Positions 46,770 to 58,400 of a stretch of DNA of 64,000 nt are shown here, in pieces. The number at the start of each line of letters is the position of its first letter. The stretch's first letter is position 1. The notes beneath the pieces were generated by a model that worked only from the letters and a program-made list of their open reading frames with translations, did no database searches and had not been told where the DNA came from. The translations under genes were made by a program, and so were the position numbers. Source of the DNA: Acetobacterium woodii (GTDB taxonomy: Bacteria; Bacillota; Clostridia; Eubacteriales; Eubacteriaceae); contig JACQZP010000031.1 in the NCBI GenBank assembly GCA_016213825.1, positions 62,001 through 126,000 of the forward strand, given 5' to 3'.

Positions 46770-46820
46770 ACCACAACCAAGGATCTTATGAAAGCCCCCG
46801 GTTGTGGTTTTGTTATTTTT
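46770..46820. terminator. Terminator between the small protein and the sigma-54 activator genes
   Basis: Nine-base arms (46770-46778 and 46800-46808) with a 21-base loop are followed on the plus strand by a T-rich tract that runs into the convergent gene's last codons. Confidence 0.7.
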
Positions 46821-48237
46821 TGATATATTTATTTACCAGGCGATAAGCGGTGGTTTGGCTTAGCCCCAGCGATTCGGCCATGTCATTGATATTATCGTAA
46901 ATCTCATAATAATCTTCAATAATTCCTCGCTTGTAGTTTTCAACCAGGTCGTCAAAAATGACCTGTCTTTTTTTGATACCCTCGTTGGCAAAAAAAGCAC
47001 CCAACTGTTCTGGTAATTTATCAATGCCAATGACGCTGCCAAGACTCATCACTGCCATCTGTTCCACTGCATTTTTAAGCTGCCGAACATTTCCCGGCCA
47101 ATCGTATTGAATCAGTGATTCAATCACCTGATTGGAGAAAACTTTATTTTGATTATATTTTTTGTTGTACTCTTTTAAATAATACTGGGCAATGGGAAAA
47201 ATATCATCCCGTCGTTCCCGGAGGGCAGGGACCGTTTGGGTGATTCCGTTAATTCGCCAGTACAAGTCCTCCCGAAAAGTATTTTTGGCTACTAATTCTG
47301 CCAGATTTTTATTGGTAGCCGTGATGATCCGGGTGTTCACCGTTTTAGATTCCAGGCCGCCAACTGAGGTAAAACGCTGATTTTCCAGAAAATCAAGGAG
47401 CTTGACCTGAATATTGGGAAGCAATTCGCCAATTTCGTCTAAAAACAGGGTGCCATTATTGGCCATTTCCACCAATCCCTTTTTTCCTTTGGGGCTGGCT
47501 CCGGTAAAGGCATAGGGGACATAGCCAAAGAGCTCACTTTCAATGAGATTATCCGGAATGGAGGCACAGTTAATTGAAACGAAGGGATGGGCTTTTCGAG
47601 GGCTGCAATCGTGGATAAATTTGGCGATCAGACTTTTACCAACTCCGCTTTCACCCAGCAAAAGAATCGGGATATCCGATTTTGCCGCTTTTTTCAGTTT
47701 GTGCAGGGTCTGGTAGAGAATGTAACTGCGGCCGACAATGTTATTACTGGCTTTGGTCCGTTCTTCCCGGGAACTTTTTTTGTCTTTAAGTTCGTGATCA
47801 TCATTCTTTTCTTTTTCCGGATTCAGATAATCCAAATCAAACTCCACAAAAGATTCTCGTTTTAAGGTGTTGTAAACCAGCATGACCAGTTCATGATCGG
47901 GATTATAAAGCGGTGTGGTTATGGTGATATGTTCTTCATCGGTAATTAATGAACGTTGTCTCGAGATGATGGTGCGTTTTTTTTCCATGGCGGTAGCGGT
48001 GGAGGGCGGTGTCCATAGACCCTGGAAGGACGTTAAAAAATTAAGCTTCCACATTTTTTCAGCTGAAATCCCATGGTATTCCAGACAAGCCGGATTGGCA
48101 TAAAGGACCTTCCCATCCTTATCGGTTACCGTTACTTCGATAAAACTATTTTCCAGAATATCCAAAAAAAATTCACTGGAAAGTGTTTTTAAATAGTCCA
48201 AGTATTCCTGGCTGTGATTAAATTCGTTTGTTATCAT
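46813..48237 (-). CDS. Sigma-54-dependent transcriptional activator (PAS-AAA+-HTH)
   Basis: A 474-residue enhancer-binding protein. A PAS-like sensor (about 25-130) is followed by a charged linker and the AAA+ domain (about 165-395) with Walker A GESGVGKS (195-202), Walker B TLFLDEIGEL and an arginine-rich FREDLYWRIN segment. The sigma-54 contact loop reads YAFTGA (242-247) instead of the usual GAFTGA. The C-terminal HTH (DMAESLGLSQTTAYRLVNKYI) is TyrR-like. It is divergent from the methyltransferase operon, which is preceded by a -24/-12 promoter, so it is very probably that operon's activator. The PAS domain may sense the methylated amine or a cofactor; this is inference. AAAGGA precedes the ATG. 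Confidence 0.92.
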   Translation of the reverse strand: MITNEFNHSQEYLDYLKTLSSEFFLDILENSFIEVTVTDKDGKVLYANPACLEYHGISAEKMWKLNFLTSFQGLWTPPSTATAMEKKRTIISRQRSLITDEEHITITTPLYNPDHELVMLVYNTLKRESFVEFDLDYLNPEKEKNDDHELKDKKSSREERTKASNNIVGRSYILYQTLHKLKKAAKSDIPILLLGESGVGKSLIAKFIHDCSPRKAHPFVSINCASIPDNLIESELFGYVPYAFTGASPKGKKGLVEMANNGTLFLDEIGELLPNIQVKLLDFLENQRFTSVGGLESKTVNTRIITATNKNLAELVAKNTFREDLYWRINGITQTVPALRERRDDIFPIAQYYLKEYNKKYNQNKVFSNQVIESLIQYDWPGNVRQLKNAVEQMAVMSLGSVIGIDKLPEQLGAFFANEGIKKRQVIFDDLVENYKRGIIEDYYEIYDNINDMAESLGLSQTTAYRLVNKYIKK

Positions 48238-48497
48238 TGGTTATCCTTTTTACACATCATTGTGTGGTCTTTCTAGTCATTTTATTATTAAGCTTATAGA
48301 TTATATAGAAGAATTATAAATCGTTTTCATCCATAGAACTGATAATAAATCAAATTGGGCCAAGGTACAAGAGGAAAAAAAGAAATATTCCCAAAAGTGA
48401 AAAACAATCAAACTGTTTTATCATATTTGGAAAGGATATCAGCGTTACGAATCTGCTGAAAGGGCAGTAATTAAAGTATCATACCTAGAAAACATGT

Positions 48498-48512
48498 TGG
48501 CACGATTATTGC
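48498..48512 (+). promoter_or_regulatory. Sigma-54 (-24/-12) promoter
   Basis: TGGCAC at 48498-48503 and TTGC at 48509-48512 match the sigma-54 consensus with the required GG-to-GC spacing. It faces the methyltransferase operon and lies next to a divergent sigma-54 activator gene. Confidence 0.88.
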
Positions 48513-48624
48513 GATACATATTATCAAGATTTGACATGACATCTCGTAAATATGTGAGAAAGGAGATAAATAGATTTGTAATCGTTTGTTCTACGAGAAA
48601 GAAAAACAGAAGTCCATGACAAAG

Positions 48625-48659
48625 TGCCCCATGCGGGGAACGGGGCAACCAAGTTTTTT
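48625..48659 (+). promoter_or_regulatory. Attenuator-like hairpin in the operon leader
   Basis: CCCC (48627-48630) can pair with GGGG at 48635-48638 or, extended to TGCCCC, with GGGGCA at 48642-48647. The second hairpin is followed by AACCAAG and T6, so alternative folding could switch termination. No regulatory ligand motif is recognised. Confidence 0.4.
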
Positions 48660-48705
48660 AGTTGTGAATTTCGCAATCATCAATTATATGTTTATGAAGG
48701 AGTAA

Positions 48706-49629
<924 letters not shown>

Positions 49630-49685
49630 AAAGATTTTGATCTAAAAATAAAAATTAAAATAAAAATAAAAGGAGGATAACTAAA

Positions 49686-51248
49686 ATGCAAGAAAAAATG
49701 ACAAAGAATAGAACAGTTTTGTACGTTTCAGCAGCAATCGCCATCGTTTTTGTATTAGCTAGTATGCTTTTTACTGAAGGTACAACAGCCGTATTTAATC
49801 TGCTAAATTCATTTATTACAACGTCTTTTGGGTGGTTGTATTTATTGGCAGTTGGAATATTTATTGTGTTTGCCATTGGTGTTGCCATCAGTCCATATGG
49901 AAAGATTAAATTGGGCAAGGATGAAGACAAACCTGAATTTACTAATTTCCAATGGTTCTCAATGTTGTTTGGCGGCGGGATGGGAATTGGTTTGGTATTC
50001 TGGTCGGTATCAGAACCGATTATGCATTACCTCAGCCCACCCATGGGAGAAGGCGGAACACAAGCAGCCATGGAATTGGCGATGCGCACCACCTTCTTTC
50101 ATTGGGGACTGCATCCATGGGTAATCTTTGCGATTGGTGGTTTGGGATTGGCATATTTTCAATTTAGAAAAGACTTACCATTCCTGATCAGTTCGGCTTT
50201 TTATCCTTTAATTGGCGAGAAGATACATGGACCAATCGGAAAAACCATTGATATCTTGGCAGTTTTTGCAACTATATTTGGAGTTGCAACAAGCCTTGGT
50301 CTTGGTTCAACTCAGATTGCCACTGGTTTGCAATACATCTGGGGGATTCAATCATCGCCAATGGTAGTTTCGATTATCATTGCTATAATGACGGTAATAT
50401 TTACTTTGGCAACGATATCCGGATTGCATAAGGCGATGCAAGCTGCAGCTAATTTAAAAATCTGGTTATCCATTGCATTTATGGTTTTTATCTTTATTTT
50501 TGGCGGAAGCGTATTTATCTTAAATAACTTTACCAATACGTTAGGTTCTTATCTGCAGAATATTGTCGGTCAAACCTTCTGGATGGGAAATATTGAATGG
50601 TTGAACGGTTGGACTGTCTTCTATTGGGCATGGTGGATTGCCTGGGCTCCATTTGTTGGACAGTTCGTCGCCCGCGTTTCAAAAGGCCGGAGCATTCGAG
50701 AATTTATTTTAGCAGTATCGTTACTACCTTCTGGTTTTTCACTGATTTGGATCGCGATTTACGGTGGTGCAGCATTTAATTTAAATGCCATCTCCGGTGG
50801 TGCCATTGAAACAGCAGTTGGAGCTGATTATACTACTGCTCTCTTTGCCCTGCTGCAACAACTGCCATTGTATGGGCTAACCTCAATTCTGGCAATTGTG
50901 TTGATTGTTGTCTGTTTTGTCGGAGCGGCAAACTCAGCAACCTATGTATTGGCAATGCTGACATCTGGCGGAGACATGGATCCAGACAAAAAATTAAGAG
51001 GCGGCTGGGGTATCGCTCAGGGTCTAATCACAATTATGTTAATCCTTGTGGGTGGAACTTCTGCTCTAAAAGCCTTACAAACGGCTTCGATTGTGGCAGC
51101 CTTCCCATATATGCTAATTATGATTGTGATGTGCTTTAGTATTCTAAAAGCCCTGAAAGCAGATTATGCTGAAACCCAACTGTTACTCAACCAAAAAAGC
51201 CTTAAAGATATTGGCAGCGGTCAAGCTGTTGCTGATGTCCAGGAATAG
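49686..51248 (+). CDS. BCCT-family transporter for betaine/carnitine/choline, copy 1
   Basis: A 520-residue twelve-helix secondary transporter. The glycine-rich unwound stretch GGGMGIGLVFWSVSEP and the aromatic box FYWAWWIAWAPFVGQF are intact; both line the quaternary-ammonium site in BetP. The GMGIG pattern resembles sodium-coupled betaine importers rather than the CaiT exchanger. The short C-terminus lacks the long basic osmosensing tail, consistent with nutrient uptake rather than osmoregulation. It lies inside the methyltransferase operon, so it probably imports the methyl donor. AAAGGAGG precedes the ATG. Substrate among the betaines is not resolved by sequence. Confidence 0.92.
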   Translation: MQEKMTKNRTVLYVSAAIAIVFVLASMLFTEGTTAVFNLLNSFITTSFGWLYLLAVGIFIVFAIGVAISPYGKIKLGKDEDKPEFTNFQWFSMLFGGGMGIGLVFWSVSEPIMHYLSPPMGEGGTQAAMELAMRTTFFHWGLHPWVIFAIGGLGLAYFQFRKDLPFLISSAFYPLIGEKIHGPIGKTIDILAVFATIFGVATSLGLGSTQIATGLQYIWGIQSSPMVVSIIIAIMTVIFTLATISGLHKAMQAAANLKIWLSIAFMVFIFIFGGSVFILNNFTNTLGSYLQNIVGQTFWMGNIEWLNGWTVFYWAWWIAWAPFVGQFVARVSKGRSIREFILAVSLLPSGFSLIWIAIYGGAAFNLNAISGGAIETAVGADYTTALFALLQQLPLYGLTSILAIVLIVVCFVGAANSATYVLAMLTSGGDMDPDKKLRGGWGIAQGLITIMLILVGGTSALKALQTASIVAAFPYMLIMIVMCFSILKALKADYAETQLLLNQKSLKDIGSGQAVADVQE

Positions 51249-51288
51249 AATCTCAAAATAAAATTATAAGAAAAAGAGGTATTTGAAT

Positions 51289-52719
51289 ATGTTACCAAAA
51301 TTTGATATTTTGACGGAAGAACAGATTGATAAGATTCACAAAAACAGTTTAAAAATTCTCCAGGAAATTGGGGTAGAGTTTTCCTACGATCCAGTTATTG
51401 AAATCTTGAAAAGCCATGGTCAAAGGGTCGAAGGCCATCGGGTTTATTTTGATCCGGATTTTGTGGAAAACATGGTTGAAAAAGCACCTGCAAAATTCAC
51501 CCTTCATGCCCGAAACCCAGAACATAACTTAGTTTGTGGCGGTGAAGATATTATCTATATGCCAGGCTACGGGGCCCCCTTTGTTTATGATGCCGATGGT
51601 GGAAAACGGGATGCTACCATGGCTGATTATGATAACTTTGTTAAATTAGCTGGGGCCAGCAAAAACATGCATATGACCGGTGGTACCGTGGTTGAACCTA
51701 CCGATGTTGCGGATGAAATCAGACATTTGAAAATGGCTTATAGCCATATTACAAATTCAGACAAATGCTTTATGGGTAGTTCCTCAGGTTATGAATTTGC
51801 TAAAGATTCAATTGAAATGACCGCTTTGCTTCATGGCGGATTGGATGTAATCAAAGAAAAACCAGCCCTGATCTGTTTGATTAACTCCGTAACGCCGCTC
51901 AAATATGATGACCGAATGCTTGGTGGTTTAATGGCTTATGCTGAAGCTGGCCAGCCGATGGTAATTGCTTCATTGGTTATGGCCGGCTCAACTGGCCCGG
52001 CAACCATGGCCGGTGCCTTATCGCTTCAAAATGCTGAAGTTCTGGCAGGGATTACCCTAACTCAATGCATTAACCCAGGAACACCTGTGGTTTATGGATC
52101 AACCTCAGCAGTAACCGATATGTCAACTGGGTCACTTTCGATCGGAAATCCTGAAAATGCCTTGTTTACCTCAGCAAGTGCCCAGTTTGCACGATTTTAT
52201 GGAGTCCCATGTCGAGGCGGCGGTGGCTTAACCGATGCTAAGACTGTTGATGCTCAGGCCGGTTATGAATCGATGATGCTGCTCTTTGCGACCAGCACCA
52301 CCGGTGTCAATTTTGTCCTTCATACAGCCGGGATTCTGCAATATTACATGGCGATGTCTTATGAAAAATTTATGGTGGATGATGAAATCGCTGGGATGGT
52401 GTTACGCTACCTCAAAGGATTTGATTGCGACAGTGACGAAAAAATGGCTTATGATGTTATTGAAAAAGTTGGTCCTGGCGGACATTTCCTGACCCAGAAG
52501 CATACACGTAAAAACTTTAAAACCGAATTCTTCAGACCGGCACTCAGTGACCGACAATCATTTGATGGATGGTCGAAAGATTCATTAGACACCAATCAGC
52601 GGGCAAAACTCAAATGGCAGGAAGTATTGGCTAACTATACCGCACCTGAGCTGGACTCAGCAGTCAAAGAAAAAATTGAAGCTTTTATTGAAAAGCGATC
52701 AAAAGAATTACTGAAATAG
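51289..52719 (+). CDS. mtgB: MttB-family non-pyrrolysine methyltransferase (MtgB-like)
   Basis: A 476-residue member of the trimethylamine methyltransferase (MttB/COG5598) superfamily. The frame has no internal amber codon and ends in TAG only at the normal length, so it is the non-pyrrolysine branch whose members demethylate quaternary amines such as glycine betaine, proline betaine, carnitine or butyrobetaine. Typical segments are CGGEDIIYMPGYGAPFV near 80, the run PGTPVVYGSTSAVTDMSTG near 265 and GGLTDAKTVDAQAGYESM near 310. It transfers a methyl group to the corrinoid protein encoded next. AAGAGG ahead of the ATG at 51289 argues against the TTG at 51283. Glycine betaine is the leading guess from operon layout. 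Confidence 0.87.
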   Translation: MLPKFDILTEEQIDKIHKNSLKILQEIGVEFSYDPVIEILKSHGQRVEGHRVYFDPDFVENMVEKAPAKFTLHARNPEHNLVCGGEDIIYMPGYGAPFVYDADGGKRDATMADYDNFVKLAGASKNMHMTGGTVVEPTDVADEIRHLKMAYSHITNSDKCFMGSSSGYEFAKDSIEMTALLHGGLDVIKEKPALICLINSVTPLKYDDRMLGGLMAYAEAGQPMVIASLVMAGSTGPATMAGALSLQNAEVLAGITLTQCINPGTPVVYGSTSAVTDMSTGSLSIGNPENALFTSASAQFARFYGVPCRGGGGLTDAKTVDAQAGYESMMLLFATSTTGVNFVLHTAGILQYYMAMSYEKFMVDDEIAGMVLRYLKGFDCDSDEKMAYDVIEKVGPGGHFLTQKHTRKNFKTEFFRPALSDRQSFDGWSKDSLDTNQRAKLKWQEVLANYTAPELDSAVKEKIEAFIEKRSKELLK

Positions 52720-52765
52720 CTAAAAAATAATACAAAAAATAAGATAAGAAAAAAGGAGAAAAATA

Positions 52766-53413
52766 ATGAACCCAATATTTGAAGAAATTAAAGATGCAAT
52801 TGTGGATGGTGATGAAGATTTAGCAGTTGAACTGGCAGAAAAAGTTGTCGCTGAAAAAATAGATCCGGTTCAAGCGGTGCAGTTTGGATTTATTAAAGGA
52901 ATTGAAGAAGTAGGGAAAAGCTGGACGAATGGGGAAGCTTTTTTACCAGATGTTATGATGGCAGCAGATGCTATGAAAGCTGGAATGGATGTCCTGGAAG
53001 AAGTATTGGCAGCTGGCGAAGGTGAAGGCGCCTATGAAGATAAAGGAAAAATTGTCCTTGGAACCGTCGAAGGCGACATTCATGATATTGGTAAAAATAT
53101 TGTGGGAGCTCTTTTAACCTCAGCTGGTTTTAAAGTTTATGACATTGGTATCGATCAAAAAGCTGAAGATTTTGTTGCTAAAGCAGACGAAGTCGGTGCA
53201 AAAATCATCGCAGCCAGCTCACTGTTAACGACCACCATGAAATCTCAAAAAGTTCTGGTTGAGTATCTGGATGCTCAAAACCTGCGTGATAAATATAAGG
53301 TTATCATCGGCGGCGGCCCTACCAGTGCTAAATGGGGTGAAGAAATTGGAGCCGATGGCTGGGCTGAAACGGCCGATGAAGCGGTTGAGTTGTGTAAACA
53401 ATTACTGAACTAG
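52766..53413 (+). CDS. mtgC: Corrinoid methyl-carrier protein (MtgC/MttC-like)
   Basis: A 215-residue methyl carrier: a helical cap (about 1-85, with GEAFLPDVMMAADAM) and a Rossmann domain with the B12 signature DIHDIGKN (His near 106), ASSLLTTTM and IIGGGPTS. It receives a methyl group from the MttB-type enzyme and passes it to the MtrH-type enzyme of the same operon. AAAAAGGAG precedes the ATG. It ends the operon, followed by a hairpin at 53471-53497. No reductive activase (RamA-type) is encoded in the cluster, so reactivation of the Co(II) form must rely on a gene elsewhere. Confidence 0.92.
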   Translation: MNPIFEEIKDAIVDGDEDLAVELAEKVVAEKIDPVQAVQFGFIKGIEEVGKSWTNGEAFLPDVMMAADAMKAGMDVLEEVLAAGEGEGAYEDKGKIVLGTVEGDIHDIGKNIVGALLTSAGFKVYDIGIDQKAEDFVAKADEVGAKIIAASSLLTTTMKSQKVLVEYLDAQNLRDKYKVIIGGGPTSAKWGEEIGADGWAETADEAVELCKQLLN

Positions 53414-53470: not shown

Positions 53471-53497
53471 AGCGCCAGAATTTTATATTTTGGCGCT
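53471..53497 (+). terminator. Terminator of the betaine methyltransferase operon
   Basis: An 11-base GC-containing stem (53471-53481 with 53487-53497, one G-U) is followed by a T-rich stretch. Confidence 0.78.
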
Positions 53498-53692
53498 GAC
53501 TTCTTTAAAAATTAAGTAAAAAGTGGCTTTAATAGTTCGACAATACCCAGATTGGCTGTTTTTTATTTTAATACGAATAATTTATGTTTATAAAAAAAAG
53601 AACATGGATAGATAAGTGTTATAATGATAATATGAAATCGTTTAATTCATATTGAAATGATAAAGAAAGCCAAGTCGGGAGGGAGAATACAG

Positions 53693-55324
53693 ATGAAAAG
53701 CAAAATAAAACAGACTGGGAATTTTGTTCCCAGAAATAGGACAGACGTTACTCAATCATGGGGGATTTTTGGCCGTTTGGATTCAGTGGTCTTTATCGTA
53801 TCAGCAATTATTTGTTTTGGATTTATTTTATGGGGTGCTGCGGATCCTGGGTCTTTGGCTGTGGCTCTTGGCCAATTACTTTCGGCGACCGTATCAAACT
53901 GGGGTTGGATGTACCAGGCTGGGGTGCTCTTTTTTGTGGTTTTTTGTTTTGCAGTTGCCTTAAGTAAATATGGAAAAATAAAATTTGGTAAAGATGATGA
54001 TGTGCCAGAATATTCTAATTTTTCATGGTTTGCCATGTTATTTGGAGCCGGGATGGGGGTTGGACTCATCTATTGGTCAGTGGCGGAAACCGTTTCACAT
54101 TTCTTAAATGGTCCAGTTTATGCTGGCGCTTCAGGAAGTCCCCAGGCTGCAGAATGGGCCATGGCGATTTCTTTTTTGCATTGGGGAATCAGTCCCTGGG
54201 CAATTTATGTCGTTGTCGGGATTCCGATGGGTCTGGTGATTTTTAGAAAAGGGTTGCCAGCACTGGTCAGCTCCTGTTTTTATCCCATCTTAGGAGACCG
54301 AATTTATGGGCCATTGGGTAAATTGATTGATATTGTTGCCCTATGTATTACTTTTTTTGGAGTATCCACAACCATTGGACTGGGAACCATGCAACTGGGG
54401 GCAGGGTTATCGTTTAACTATGGCATCCCCTTAAATAACAATTTATATATTATCATTTTAATTGTAGTTGCTGCTGCCTATCTGGCATCGGCCTGTTTGC
54501 CCATTGATCGAGGCATCAAGGTCGGTTCGGATGTCAGCATGATCGCTTGTTTGGGTTTATTATTGTTTCTGTTTATCCTTGGTCCGACAAAATATATTAT
54601 GGATAATTTTGTTAATGCCACTGGTCTCTATGTTCAAAATTTCATCACCATGAGCACTTGGACAGACCCAGTAGGACAGACCGGCTGGTTGAATTCATGG
54701 ACGATATTTTATTGGGCCTGGTGGATATCGTGGGCACCATTTGTGGGTATGTTTATTGCCAAAATATCAAAAGGTCGGACAATCAAGCAGTTTGTAATTG
54801 CCGCAATTATTGCGCCATCATTATTTGATATGATTTTTTTCGATATTTTTGGTTCAACAGCCCTGCATTTTGAATTTGCTGAAGCAACAAAGGGCCTTAT
54901 TCAAAACGCTATCGCATCAGATGTAGCCAATGGAATATATGTCCTTTTTAATCAATTTCCTTTTAGCGATGTAATAATAATTGTTATTCTGTTTGTCGTC
55001 TTCACATTTTTTGTGGTTTCGGCCGATTCAGCAACGATTGTTCTCGGGATGCTCTCGAGTGGGGGAAATGATTCACCCCGAACCAGCTTAAAACTTTTGT
55101 GGGGGATCGCCTTGGCTTTTTCAGCAGGAATTCTGATTATTATGGGAGGGTTAACTGCGGTGCAGACCGTTCCGATTGTCGCCGTTTTTCCATTTATATT
55201 TATTCTTTTTGCCATGTGTTATTCAACAATTAAGATGTTGCAGGAAGATCATTTATTCAAGGAGACGCCAGAGATTAGCAGTGGGGAAAAAGAGCAAGCG
55301 TTAGAAAAAAATATAGCTCAATAA
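53693..55324 (+). CDS. BCCT-family transporter, copy 2
   Basis: A 543-residue twelve-helix transporter of the same family as the copy at 49686, with GAGMGVGLIYWSVAETVSHF and FYWAWWISWAPFVGMF at the substrate and sodium sites. It is somewhat longer at both ends than copy 1 but still lacks a large regulatory tail. GGGAGGG at about 53678-53684 directs the ATG at 53693, not the ATG at 53657. It is separated from the upstream operon by a terminator and linked to a chemoreceptor gene only 31 bases downstream. It likely takes up another or the same quaternary amine, with its own regulation. Confidence 0.9.
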   Translation: MKSKIKQTGNFVPRNRTDVTQSWGIFGRLDSVVFIVSAIICFGFILWGAADPGSLAVALGQLLSATVSNWGWMYQAGVLFFVVFCFAVALSKYGKIKFGKDDDVPEYSNFSWFAMLFGAGMGVGLIYWSVAETVSHFLNGPVYAGASGSPQAAEWAMAISFLHWGISPWAIYVVVGIPMGLVIFRKGLPALVSSCFYPILGDRIYGPLGKLIDIVALCITFFGVSTTIGLGTMQLGAGLSFNYGIPLNNNLYIIILIVVAAAYLASACLPIDRGIKVGSDVSMIACLGLLLFLFILGPTKYIMDNFVNATGLYVQNFITMSTWTDPVGQTGWLNSWTIFYWAWWISWAPFVGMFIAKISKGRTIKQFVIAAIIAPSLFDMIFFDIFGSTALHFEFAEATKGLIQNAIASDVANGIYVLFNQFPFSDVIIIVILFVVFTFFVVSADSATIVLGMLSSGGNDSPRTSLKLLWGIALAFSAGILIIMGGLTAVQTVPIVAVFPFIFILFAMCYSTIKMLQEDHLFKETPEISSGEKEQALEKNIAQ

Positions 55325-55355
55325 TATGAATTAGTAAGCATTGAAAGGGATTCAC

Positions 55356-58300
55356 ATGAAAGTAAATAATCAGACAGTTAAGCGCAGATCCATTAAAACA
55401 AAATTATTAATTGTACCACTCATTTGTGTACTGGCTGGCGTTTTTATGATTGGAGCAATTTCGTCATATTTAGCAAGAGACAGTTTGCTTGCTGAAATGC
55501 GAGAAAATGGTTTTTCATCATCGCAGCGTTTTGTCAATCGAATTGAAGATAACACAGAAGCGGTGCGGACCATGAATGAACAATTGGAAGCACAGATCCG
55601 TAGTATCGGGAATATCGTCCTCGGGAATCGCGTCAGTATTAATGATGGTTATTTAACCCAATTAGCGGCGCAAACAGGGATTGATCATATTTATTTATAT
55701 AACCCTTCCGGAGAAATTATCAACGCTGCCAATGGTGAATATTTGGGATGGAAGGCGACGCCTGGTGATCCGATCCATAACTTTATGATCAGTGGGGCCC
55801 CGGAATTGATGGAAGAAATCAGAAAGAGTACCGAAACCACTGAAAACTTTAAATACGGTTATGTTCGAAGCAATACTGGGGAATTTGTCCAGGCGGGTGT
55901 TTCCGCTGACCGGGTTTTGGAACTGACCGAAAAGTTTGGCTATCAGGCTTTAATCGACGAGTTGGCATCGGATGATAGCATTGTTTATGCAAGTTTTATT
56001 GACCAAGATCTTATCGGGGTTGCGGACAGCAATAAGGATAATATTGGCAAAAACTATCAGGAAGATGAAAGCATTAAAAAGGTCGCCCGGGATGGCGAAA
56101 TGAGTGCCAAAGAATATTTTTATGAAGCTGAAAATACCAATGTTTATGATGTTTTATATCCGGTTGTTATTAATGGCGAATTAAAAGGTGCTCTGAATAT
56201 CGGGTATTCCATGAACACCATCCAGTCGGCGATCGCAAAAAATATTTTATTGATTGCTATTGCGGGGCTGATTGTTTTTCTGATATTAGGATTTATTTTA
56301 TATAAGATTTCAACTTCCATCACCAGGCCGATTGCGAGCATCAACCATATGATCAAGGAAATGGGAAAAGGTCATCTGGGGATTCGTCTAAATCTTGATT
56401 CCCAGGATGAAATTGGCGAAATGGCAATAACCATGGATGAATTTGCTGATGATCTGCAAAATGTTGTTATTGGCACCATGAATCAGATTTCAGCCGGAGA
56501 TGTGTCGGCTGATATTGAAGAAAAGGATGATTTGGATGAGATCGCACCGGCTTTGAAACGAACCATTGAAACCATTCGTAATTTGATCCAGGAAACAACC
56601 CGGCTATCACAGGCAGCTGTTGCAGGAAAATTGGAAACCAGGGGAAATATAAAAGCATTTGAAGGTGGATTCAAAGATATTGTCGAAGGTGTTAATGCCA
56701 CTTTAGATGCAGTCGTTGGCCCGCTGAACATTGCCGCCGATTACGTGAACAAGATTGGTCAAGGGGAAATCCCGGAACCAATTACTGAGGCTTACGAGGG
56801 CGATTTTGATAAGCTGAAACAAAGCATCAATGCCTGTATTGATGGTTTGGGAGCTTTAAAAGAAGGCAACCGGGTGCTCGCCTTAATGAGTCAAAATGAT
56901 TTCAGTCAAAATATTGAGAATCAATACCTGGGAATCTATGGCGAAATTGGCGCAGGGATTAATTCAGTTCATGATCAACTGGTACGGATTGTTCAGATTG
57001 CTAACCATATTGAAGCCGGCGAACTTGGGGATTTAAGCGAATTGAAAGCGATTGGCAAAAGAAGTGCTAATGATACGTTGATTCCAAGCCTCATTGGAAT
57101 GATGGAGAACATTGTTCGATTGGTGGCCGAGACCCAAAAAATGACGCAAATCGCCGTCGCCGGGGATCTGAGTTTCAGAGGCGATGAAACCCGTTTCGCC
57201 GGGGAGTATAGCAAAGTCATTGCAGGATTCAATCAGACCTTGGATGCGGTGATCAATCCAATTACAGAAGCTTCGGGAACCTTGAAAGAACTGGCCGCCG
57301 GGAATTTAAATACAGCAATGACCGGTGATTACCAGGGTGACCATGCCATTATCAAAGAGGATCTGAATCAGACCATTGCGAATCTGAAACGTTACGTCAA
57401 TGAAATTACCAGCACCCTGGAAGAAATGAGCCAGGGGAATCTGGATCAGGAAATTACCTCTTCCTACACCGGTGATTTCCTGGCGATAAAAAAAGCCCTC
57501 AACGGCATCAGTTCAAGTTTGAGCTCAACCATGACGGATATTGATACGGCTGCCGCCCATGTGGAAATTGGTGCCAGACAAATTTCCGATGGCGGCCAGG
57601 CCCTGGCCCAGGGAACCACCGAACAGGCCAGCTCCATCCAGGAATTGACAGCCTCCATTGAAGAAGTCGCCAGCGAAACCAAACAGAATGCCAGTCGCGC
57701 CAATGATGCCAATGAACTGGCCGTTAGAGTGAGGAAAAATGCCGAAGTCGGCAATGCGCAAATGAAAAAGATGATCGTCGCCATGCGAGATATTGATGAT
57801 TCATCGAACAATATTTCAAAAATAATTAAGGTGATTGATGATATTGCCTTCCAGACCAATATTCTGGCGCTTAATGCCGCCGTTGAAGCGGCTCGAGCCG
57901 GACAACACGGCAAGGGTTTTGCGGTTGTTGCCGAAGAAGTTCGAACCCTGGCAGCCCGAAGTGCCGAAGCCGCCAAGGAAACCACCGGACTGATTGAAGG
58001 CTCTATTGAAAAGGTCGGTGCGGGAACAAAAATTGCCGACGAAACCGCTGAAAGTCTAAAAGAAATCTTACTTGAAATTGAAAAAGTGACCAGTTTGGTG
58101 GGGAATATCGCCAGGGCGTCCACCGATCAGGCATCAGAAATCGCCCAGATCACCCAGGGGATTGAACAGGTTTCTCAGGTTGTTCAAACCAATTCGGCCA
58201 CTGCTGAAGAAAGTGCCGCCTCCAGTGAAGAATTATCCGGTCAAGCCGAAATGCTTAAACAGATGGTGGGCGCATTTAAGCTTAAAAAGCAAGTGCGAAT

Positions 58301-58400
58301 AGACAGAGAAATCTCAGTAAGGGTAAATGAAAAAATAGATTTGCCAACTCAAGCTCAGCCCAAGATTTTTTTAGATGATATGGAAATGGATAAATATTAA
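55356..58400 (+). CDS. Methyl-accepting chemotaxis protein with poly-HAMP linker
   Basis: A 1014-residue chemoreceptor. Helix 1 (about 15-40) and helix 2 (about 294-318) flank a periplasmic-side sensor of roughly 250 residues with a Cache-like pattern ([36 protein letters not shown]). A canonical HAMP domain follows, then an unusually long series of HAMP-like repeats (about 380-715; repeated [19 protein letters not shown] and GNLN/GNLDQ units). The kinase-control domain has the hairpin-tip sequence [25 protein letters not shown]-type motif. AAAGGGA precedes the ATG at 55356. Its coupling to a BCCT gene suggests taxis towards the transported compound, an inference. Confidence 0.9.

Follow-up and report, generated by a model that had tools for sequence, protein, structure and literature searches.

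The window analyzed here is a 64,000-nucleotide stretch of an Acetobacterium genome (assembly GCA_016213825.1, contig JACQZP010000031.1), and its positions 46813-53413 very likely hold the Acetobacterium operon for glycine betaine catabolism, placed under the control of sigma-54 and of a divergently encoded activator, which is named MtgR here. Within this interval we located the gene of a PAS/AAA+ activator, a -24/-12 promoter and the divergent mtgA-BCCT-mtgB-mtgC genes, which is the arrangement that a sequence-only reading of the window had proposed. In the pathway that these genes would form, the BCCT transporter would import glycine betaine, MtgB would convert it to dimethylglycine by transferring one methyl group to the Co(I) corrinoid of MtgC, and MtgA would pass the methyl group to tetrahydrofolate (THF), from which it would enter the Wood-Ljungdahl pathway. 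The four genes would be transcribed from the -24/-12 promoter by sigma-54 polymerase, which would stay closed until ATP is hydrolyzed by the activator. We infer that MtgR binds at a pair of inverted sites, roughly 80-110 bp upstream, where it would hydrolyze ATP, and that it is most likely activated by the binding of glycine betaine or a product to its PAS domain.

The enzyme genes, all on the plus strand, were identified by profile and structure matches. The mtgA gene (48709..49629) encodes the methyl-corrinoid:THF methyltransferase (NF047990, 604.7 bits, cut-off 550; 6sj8, 2.3e-141), and is followed by the gene of a BCCT glycine betaine transporter (49686..51248; NF047988, 743.6 bits, cut-off 650), by mtgB (51289..52719), encoding a glycine betaine:corrinoid methyltransferase of the non-pyrrolysine MttB family (PF06253, 1.1e-171), and by mtgC (52766..53413), encoding the corrinoid protein (NF047995, 339 bits, cut-off 310). 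The start of mtgB is an ATG at 51289, with a TTG also present at 51283, and its reading frame is free of internal stop codons. MtgB matched the glycine betaine methyltransferase 9yce at nearly full length (1.6e-227, 474 residues), and 2qne was matched likewise; we take 9yce, 2qne and 6sj8 to be structures of the Desulfitobacterium hafniense MtgABC proteins. MtgA and MtgC are of the glycine-betaine-specific types, as the cut-offs of both NF047990 and NF047995 were exceeded. The sequence-only reading had proposed uptake of quaternary amines and their demethylation to methyl-THF, which is well supported by these data, while the NCBIfam and 9yce matches narrow the predicted substrate to glycine betaine. 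It is highly improbable that the substrate is another quaternary amine, such as proline betaine, carnitine or butyrobetaine. Substrates do vary among MttB-family members, no NCBIfam model scored above its cut-off for MtgB itself, the trimethylamine model TIGR02369 alone being offered below cut-off, and the Eubacterium limosum relative of MtgR discussed below may serve a carnitine or butyrobetaine enzyme; but the match of MtgB to 9yce is near full-length, the operon encodes MtgA and MtgC of the glycine betaine type, and the A. woodii counterpart was published for glycine betaine (PMC9768040).

The mtgR gene (46813..48237, minus strand) encodes a 474-amino-acid sigma-54 activator of the PAS-AAA+-HTH type (Sigma54_activat, 1.5e-60; HTH_50), in which PF00158, PF25601 (the lid) and PF18024 (the HTH) scored above cut-off and the Walker A motif reads GESGVGK. 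The genome contained a single match to the sigma-54 DNA-binding domain. The Pfam PAS models matched MtgR below cut-off only. When the first 155 residues were modeled with AlphaFold (pLDDT, the model's confidence score, 80.8), the top Foldseek match was the NifL PAS domain 2gj3 (E 2.3e-07), and comparison with the PAS domain 3b33 gave a Z of 13.8 and a root-mean-square deviation of 2.7 over 104 aligned residues. The modeled sensor domain thus adopts a PAS fold, in agreement with the PAS sensor that the sequence-only reading had assigned.

The conservation of the operon and its switch was followed in 61 genomes (the window's own and 60 relatives). An MttB relative was present in 28 of them, and a close MtgB (74-100% identity) in 19, counting the window's genome; 12-16 kb were fetched around the 18 others. 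The activator was divergent from mtgA-BCCT-mtgB-mtgC in 16 of these 18 loci, and hence in 17 of 19 with the window. The activator and the promoter occurred together in the same 17 loci, and both were absent from the other two, those of Alkalibacter mobilis (G048) and Alkalibaculum sporogenes (G051). A wider set, made of the best 80 of 125 named loci, contained 39 with an MtgB of at least 65% identity, and an activator was visible in the stretch fetched for 15 of them, several of the stretches in this set ending early at contig ends. These 15 were ten Acetobacterium-type loci, which belong to genomes of the 61-genome search, partly under other names, all four Sporomusa loci, and that of Peptococcaceae bacterium CEB3. 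Fourteen of them, namely the ten Acetobacterium-type and the four Sporomusa loci, had an exact TGGCAY-N5-TTGC upstream.

The promoter in the window, TGGCACGATTATTGC, lies at 48498..48512 on the plus strand, in agreement with the TGGCAC-N5-TTGC and the position 48512 given by the earlier reading. It is one mismatch away from TGGCACGNNNNTTGCW and has the form TGGCACG-N4-TTGC. This single site, taken alone, would prove little, because matches to TGGCACGNNNNTTGCW with up to two mismatches are not rare in the window (11 found versus 8.69 expected). It is more than a chance match, because TGGCAC(or T)G-N4-TTGC was retained between the activator and mtgA in 17/17 activator-bearing orthologous loci, with the C changed to T in one of them, at distances from -83 to -217 relative to the mtgA start. 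In the alignment of ten genomes the promoter bases were the most conserved upstream stretch, with a mean pairwise identity of 0.94. That the -24/-12 site is incidental and the operon is driven by a sigma-70 promoter has a very small probability: a TTGGCA-16-TATTAT match (10/12) does overlap the promoter at 48497-48524, but sigma-70-like matches in this region were at the level of chance (24 found versus 23.4 expected), and it is the -24/-12 bases that are conserved best upstream and that, like the activator, are missing from G048 and G051.

Upstream of the promoter the window holds two inverted copies of the 17-bp sequence TTYCCAAANRTGANAAA. The first half of this putative enhancer, TTCCCAAAAGTGAAAAA, is at 48388..48404 on the plus strand, 110 bp upstream (-110) from the -24 element, and the second, TTTCCAAATATGATAAA, is at 48417..48433 on the minus strand, at -81. 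They were the sole zero-mismatch matches to TTYCCAAANRTGANAAA in the 64-kb window, where four matches with up to two mismatches were found versus 2.47 expected. In 13 of the 17 activator-bearing loci an inverted pair lying within three bases of the window positions was among the top three hits, and in 14 of the 17 the summed site score was reached by none of 100 mononucleotide shuffles.

Nine genomes were also scanned for activators and for MttB genes. One of them, G022, which we take to be E. limosum ATCC 8486, had 21 activator-domain matches, of which the 19 strong ones were used and two weak ones dropped. Of these 19 activators, 18 had one of the 42 MttB genes no farther than 3 kb away, while 5000 random placements averaged 1.10 such activators and never exceeded 6. 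Moreover, an exact TGGCAY-N5-TTGC preceded 11 of the 42 MttB genes at up to 400 bp on the gene's own strand, with 0.09 sites expected. The same count of 42 MttB genes was printed for E. limosum ATCC 8486 (PMC12155760). The tie between activators and MttB genes is weaker in the window's genus than in E. limosum: in eight genomes of the genus 21 of 81 strong activators were within 5 kb of an MttB gene, and in the window's genome one of ten, with a single MttB fragment of G008 and the weakly matching activators not counted. A separate observation concerns the E. limosum activator L207 763379-764761, which is near an MttB gene; in the region examined (763379-766235) it is divergent from a sigma-54-like site (764887) that precedes a gene not recognized as MttB, which suggests that activators located near MttB genes need not all serve an MttB.

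In the activator tree, 36 loci were chosen and 31 passed the motif filter; the tree has 33 rows, with one E. limosum activator present twice; three E. limosum activators, including the only one far from an MttB gene, and two of the window's genome were left out, and two further E. limosum activators were not among the chosen loci. MtgR was placed in a clade of 18 rows (support 100/99), all of them encoded no more than 3 kb away from an MttB gene or next to an mtgB operon. The mtg-side activators of three Sporomusa species fell into a separate group of seven (100/99), which also included one Desulfotignum activator near an MttB-family gene and three from E. limosum that are encoded close to MttB genes. 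In four Sporomusa genomes no sensor-domain similarity to the window activator was above noise. Because of the separate tree groups and this noise-level sensor similarity, activators of two clades have probably come to serve mtg operons through independent recruitment.

The co-divergence of activators and MttB enzymes was compared for 18 pairs (17 from E. limosum and one from the window), the nearest MttB being taken as the partner, which could be wrong for some, and four activators outside the tree being assigned to a clade by their loop motif. The similarities correlated with r 0.199 (p 0.055) for the full activator and r 0.209 (p 0.0496) for the sensor. Neither the 12 pairs placed in the MtgR clade (r 0.03 and 0.10) nor the 11 remaining without the window (r 0.12 and 0.17) gave significant values. 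A tight co-divergence was rejected, the correlation being at most marginal, and, because the two similarities co-vary to this small extent, the pairs seem to have been reshuffled.

Several observations weigh against a dedicated glycine betaine switch of this kind. The marginal co-variation weakens the notion of a sensor that co-evolved with its enzyme. The stretches fetched around mtgB from Alkalibacter, Alkalibaculum, Geosporobacter and Desulfosporosinus, of which some are short, showed no activator, and therefore the enzymes do not need it. The inverted upstream pair was not among the top hits in G005, G013, G014 and G016; G014 had two sites in the same orientation, at -106 and -76, and the other three had one of the two sites only. 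Shuffles attained the site score in 2, 3 and 10 of 100 trials for G017, G016 and G013, respectively, the site consensus was derived from the alignment on which it was then scored, so that this scoring is partly circular, and the block containing the sites was barely better conserved than its neighbors (0.72 versus 0.46-0.69 in ten genomes). Finally, the sigma-54-contacting loop of MtgR reads PYAFTGA, with tyrosine in place of the first glycine of GAFTGA in 12/12 aligned orthologs; YAFTGA retains five of the six letters. The first loop letter was G in eight and S in one of the nine other strong activators of the window's genome, while five E. limosum activators near MttB genes had Y or H there. 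This variant was ruled out as a signature of the whole MtgR clade, in which G occupied this position in 7/12 rows, and no statement on it was found among the matches listed or in the available part of PMC2745333. A different change, in the fifth letter (GAFTDA), was seen in the E. limosum activator L208 759911-761281.

Some of these data would also fit an operon that is controlled by sigma-54 while the PAS domain senses the redox or energy state, a flavin or a general methyl-group signal, so that the switch would be gated by physiology rather than by substrate. The closest folds to the PAS model include those of NifL, which binds flavin adenine dinucleotide and senses redox, of LOV domains and of the CitA and NtrB PAS domains, and the E. 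limosum activators and MttB enzymes look reshuffled. We consider such a signal rather unlikely, as the activator stands beside one substrate-specific operon in 17 loci, and as 18 of 19 strong E. limosum activators are near MttB genes in many places, a layout that a single global signal does not need. Also, in E. limosum MtyB was detected on its own substrate but not on that of MtcB, and the converse held for MtcB (PMC8604678).

Among the E. limosum activators, the closest to MtgR was G022 495901-497334, with 81% identity in the AAA+ domain and 55-57% in the sensor. It faces the MttB gene 494205-495671, whose product is 28% identical to MtgB, and behind which lies an MFS-like gene, as judged by eye. 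The MttB encoded at 494205 was 53% identical to that at 1024275 (71% positives over 99%), and each gene has, again as judged by eye, a divergent activator and an MFS-like gene. These values resemble those published for MtcB and MtyB (53%, 70% and 99%, with the same neighbors), which were called the most similar pair (PMC8604678, where neither a sequence nor a primer of MtyB is printed). Other pairs among the 21 MttB proteins compared also attained 53%, and one 65%, because of which the match of 494205 and 1024275 to MtcB and MtyB is a lead rather than an identification. The alternative candidacy of 494205, as the glycine betaine methyltransferase of E. limosum, was weakened by its resemblance to the MtcB/MtyB description; no paper naming such an enzyme in E. 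limosum was among the matches listed. We tentatively suggest, as something that could well prove otherwise, that in E. limosum and its kin sigma-54 is largely a sigma factor of quaternary amines, with an expanded family of short-PAS activators, MtgR included, distributed across MttB operons, each sensing a different methylated amine, and with the pairs swapped. If 494205 were the glycine betaine methyltransferase, the ligand would have been kept and the enzyme replaced, a case that has a poor chance because of the MtcB/MtyB resemblance. We favor over it the case in which 494205 is MtcB or MtyB and one sensor fold would have shifted its tuning between glycine betaine on one side and carnitine or butyrobetaine on the other. 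The operon is an entry point to a regulatory question, since most of the 42 MttB genes in a single gut acetogen have unassigned substrates. The 18 activators near the E. limosum MttB genes, most of them with short sensors, offer a route to read these substrates by ligand binding or reporters, and for acetogen engineering the -24/-12 promoter is a candidate for inducible, sigma-54-dependent expression.

The leader of the mtg mRNA contains a conserved element (48531..48620, plus strand) with a possible 7-bp stem (48542-48548 paired with 48592-48598) enclosing AAAGGAGA. In the ten genomes its mean pairwise identity was 0.81, while other leader blocks gave 0.59-0.84 and blocks upstream of the promoter 0.46-0.72; in G005, G013 and G014 the leader is shorter than the element would require. 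A covariance model, with which 20 genomes were searched and 150 candidates scored per genome, gave strong matches solely at the mtgA leaders of ten, which were the ten used for building it. Its three weak hits (E 0.03-0.06) include the mtg leader of G016. The consensus fold consisted of two 7-bp hairpins with a slightly unfavorable covariation term (+0.21). The first hairpin contained a single pair altered on both sides, seen in one of the sequences. The other hairpin, which is close to the ribosome site, had four such doubly altered pairs, each from one sequence, but also four pairs that were broken in one or two sequences. A riboswitch was rejected, as no Rfam match in the window reached the gathering level, two leader matches being far below gathering scores, and the fold of the window leader was no better than that of shuffles (z -0.67). 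A start-stop codon (GTG/TTG TAA) after the leader AAAGGAG was dropped, as it was absent from some of the aligned sequences.

Downstream of mtgC, a terminator-like hairpin at 53471..53497 (plus strand), found by a pattern scan alone, likely marks the end of the four-gene operon. It is followed on the same strand by a second BCCT gene of the betaine type (53657..55324; NF047988, 652.2 bits, narrowly above the cut-off of 650), probably a separate transcript, and by a gene of a methyl-accepting chemotaxis protein with sCache_3_2, HAMP and MCPsignal domains (55341..58400). A scan for a separate promoter of this BCCT gene gave chance level. The sequence-only reading had called the locus complete, which is inexact; the genes that it named are present, while this BCCT and the chemoreceptor had been left out. 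In 17 of the 18 loci fetched for comparison, mtgC was followed by a BCCT gene, mostly for a different paralog, and a chemoreceptor homolog was present in nine of the 18, one of the rest being cut by a contig end. Close paralogs of the second BCCT (80%) and of the chemoreceptor (85%) were seen on another contig of the same genome (L078 2380-4038 and 9096-12146), where they are close to two other MttB genes. The presence of both genes after the operon and of paralogs near MttB genes suggests chemotaxis toward quaternary amines. No reductive activase gene was found in 46813-53413, as the earlier reading had remarked; the four RACo-type C-terminal domains of the genome are all outside the operon. 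One is on the same contig, in a 519-amino-acid protein encoded past the window end at the window-equivalent 66347-67906, 12.9 kb beyond mtgC, with AcsV as the best NCBIfam match, below cut-off. In the relatives lacking the activator, a second gene of an MtgC-like corrinoid protein was observed upstream of mtgA in Alkalibacter, Alkalibaculum and Geosporobacter (L129 4263-4847, L130 3798-4418, L134 4506-5138), and in Desulfosporosinus an MtgC-like gene recurred downstream of the mtg genes on the opposite strand (L139 12782-13405, L143 12916-13539 and others).

The enzymes of the window operon are the same as the MtgABC of D. hafniense, reportedly described by Ticak in 2014 (cited in PMC12155760). 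For the glycine betaine operon of A. woodii and A. dehalogenans, the work cited is that of Lechtenfeld from 2018 (cited in PMC9768040). Both operons have the same order as the window, mtgA-BCCT-mtgB-mtgC-BCCT, and in G009, presumably A. woodii, and in G001 (A. dehalogenans) MtgB is 94% identical to that of the window; the window's second BCCT differs from theirs (42-44% identity) and has counterparts of 80-96% in G010, G016 and G017. The A. woodii operon (Awo_c07520-07560) was called experimentally proven, and that of A. dehalogenans (A3KSDRAFT_02713-02709) was listed beside it (PMC9768040). The sequence-only reading had regarded strict sigma-54 control with a dedicated PAS sensor as less commonly described, and such rarity is not supported by what is in print. 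Sigma-54 promoters and activators, as in the window, are present in the SigL-regulated betaine methyltransferase cluster of Sporomusa sphaeroides KIAC, whose transcription start sites were mapped (PMC12456013), and MttB (COG5598) was listed as sigma-54-regulated in Clostridia (PMC12316311). The mtg-side activators in four other Sporomusa genomes, three of them in the tree, are of a different clade than MtgR, and in two of these loci the BCCT is only 27-29% identical. The main text of a 2019 Clostridiales sigma-54 reconstruction does not contain betaine, trimethylamine or methyltransferase (PMC6615313). Among the literature matches listed, as far as the available texts go, neither the view of the activators as a family nor the upstream site pair, the 18/19 count or the loop variant was found. 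In 2021, mtcB and mtyB were noted to have divergent RocR-like activators (PMC8604678). These E. limosum loci resemble the window in having a divergent activator of the RocR/FIS type beside an MttB gene, and they also have an MFS transporter, while their shared MtqC and MtqA are encoded elsewhere and the window has mtgA and mtgC inside the operon; the E. limosum genome shares the activator clade of MtgR. Hence, in its enzymes and its order the operon is already known, an ordinary catabolic operon whose sigma-54 switch is soundly conserved, and this switch, judging from the sequence comparisons, belongs to a family of regulators found repeatedly beside MttB enzymes.

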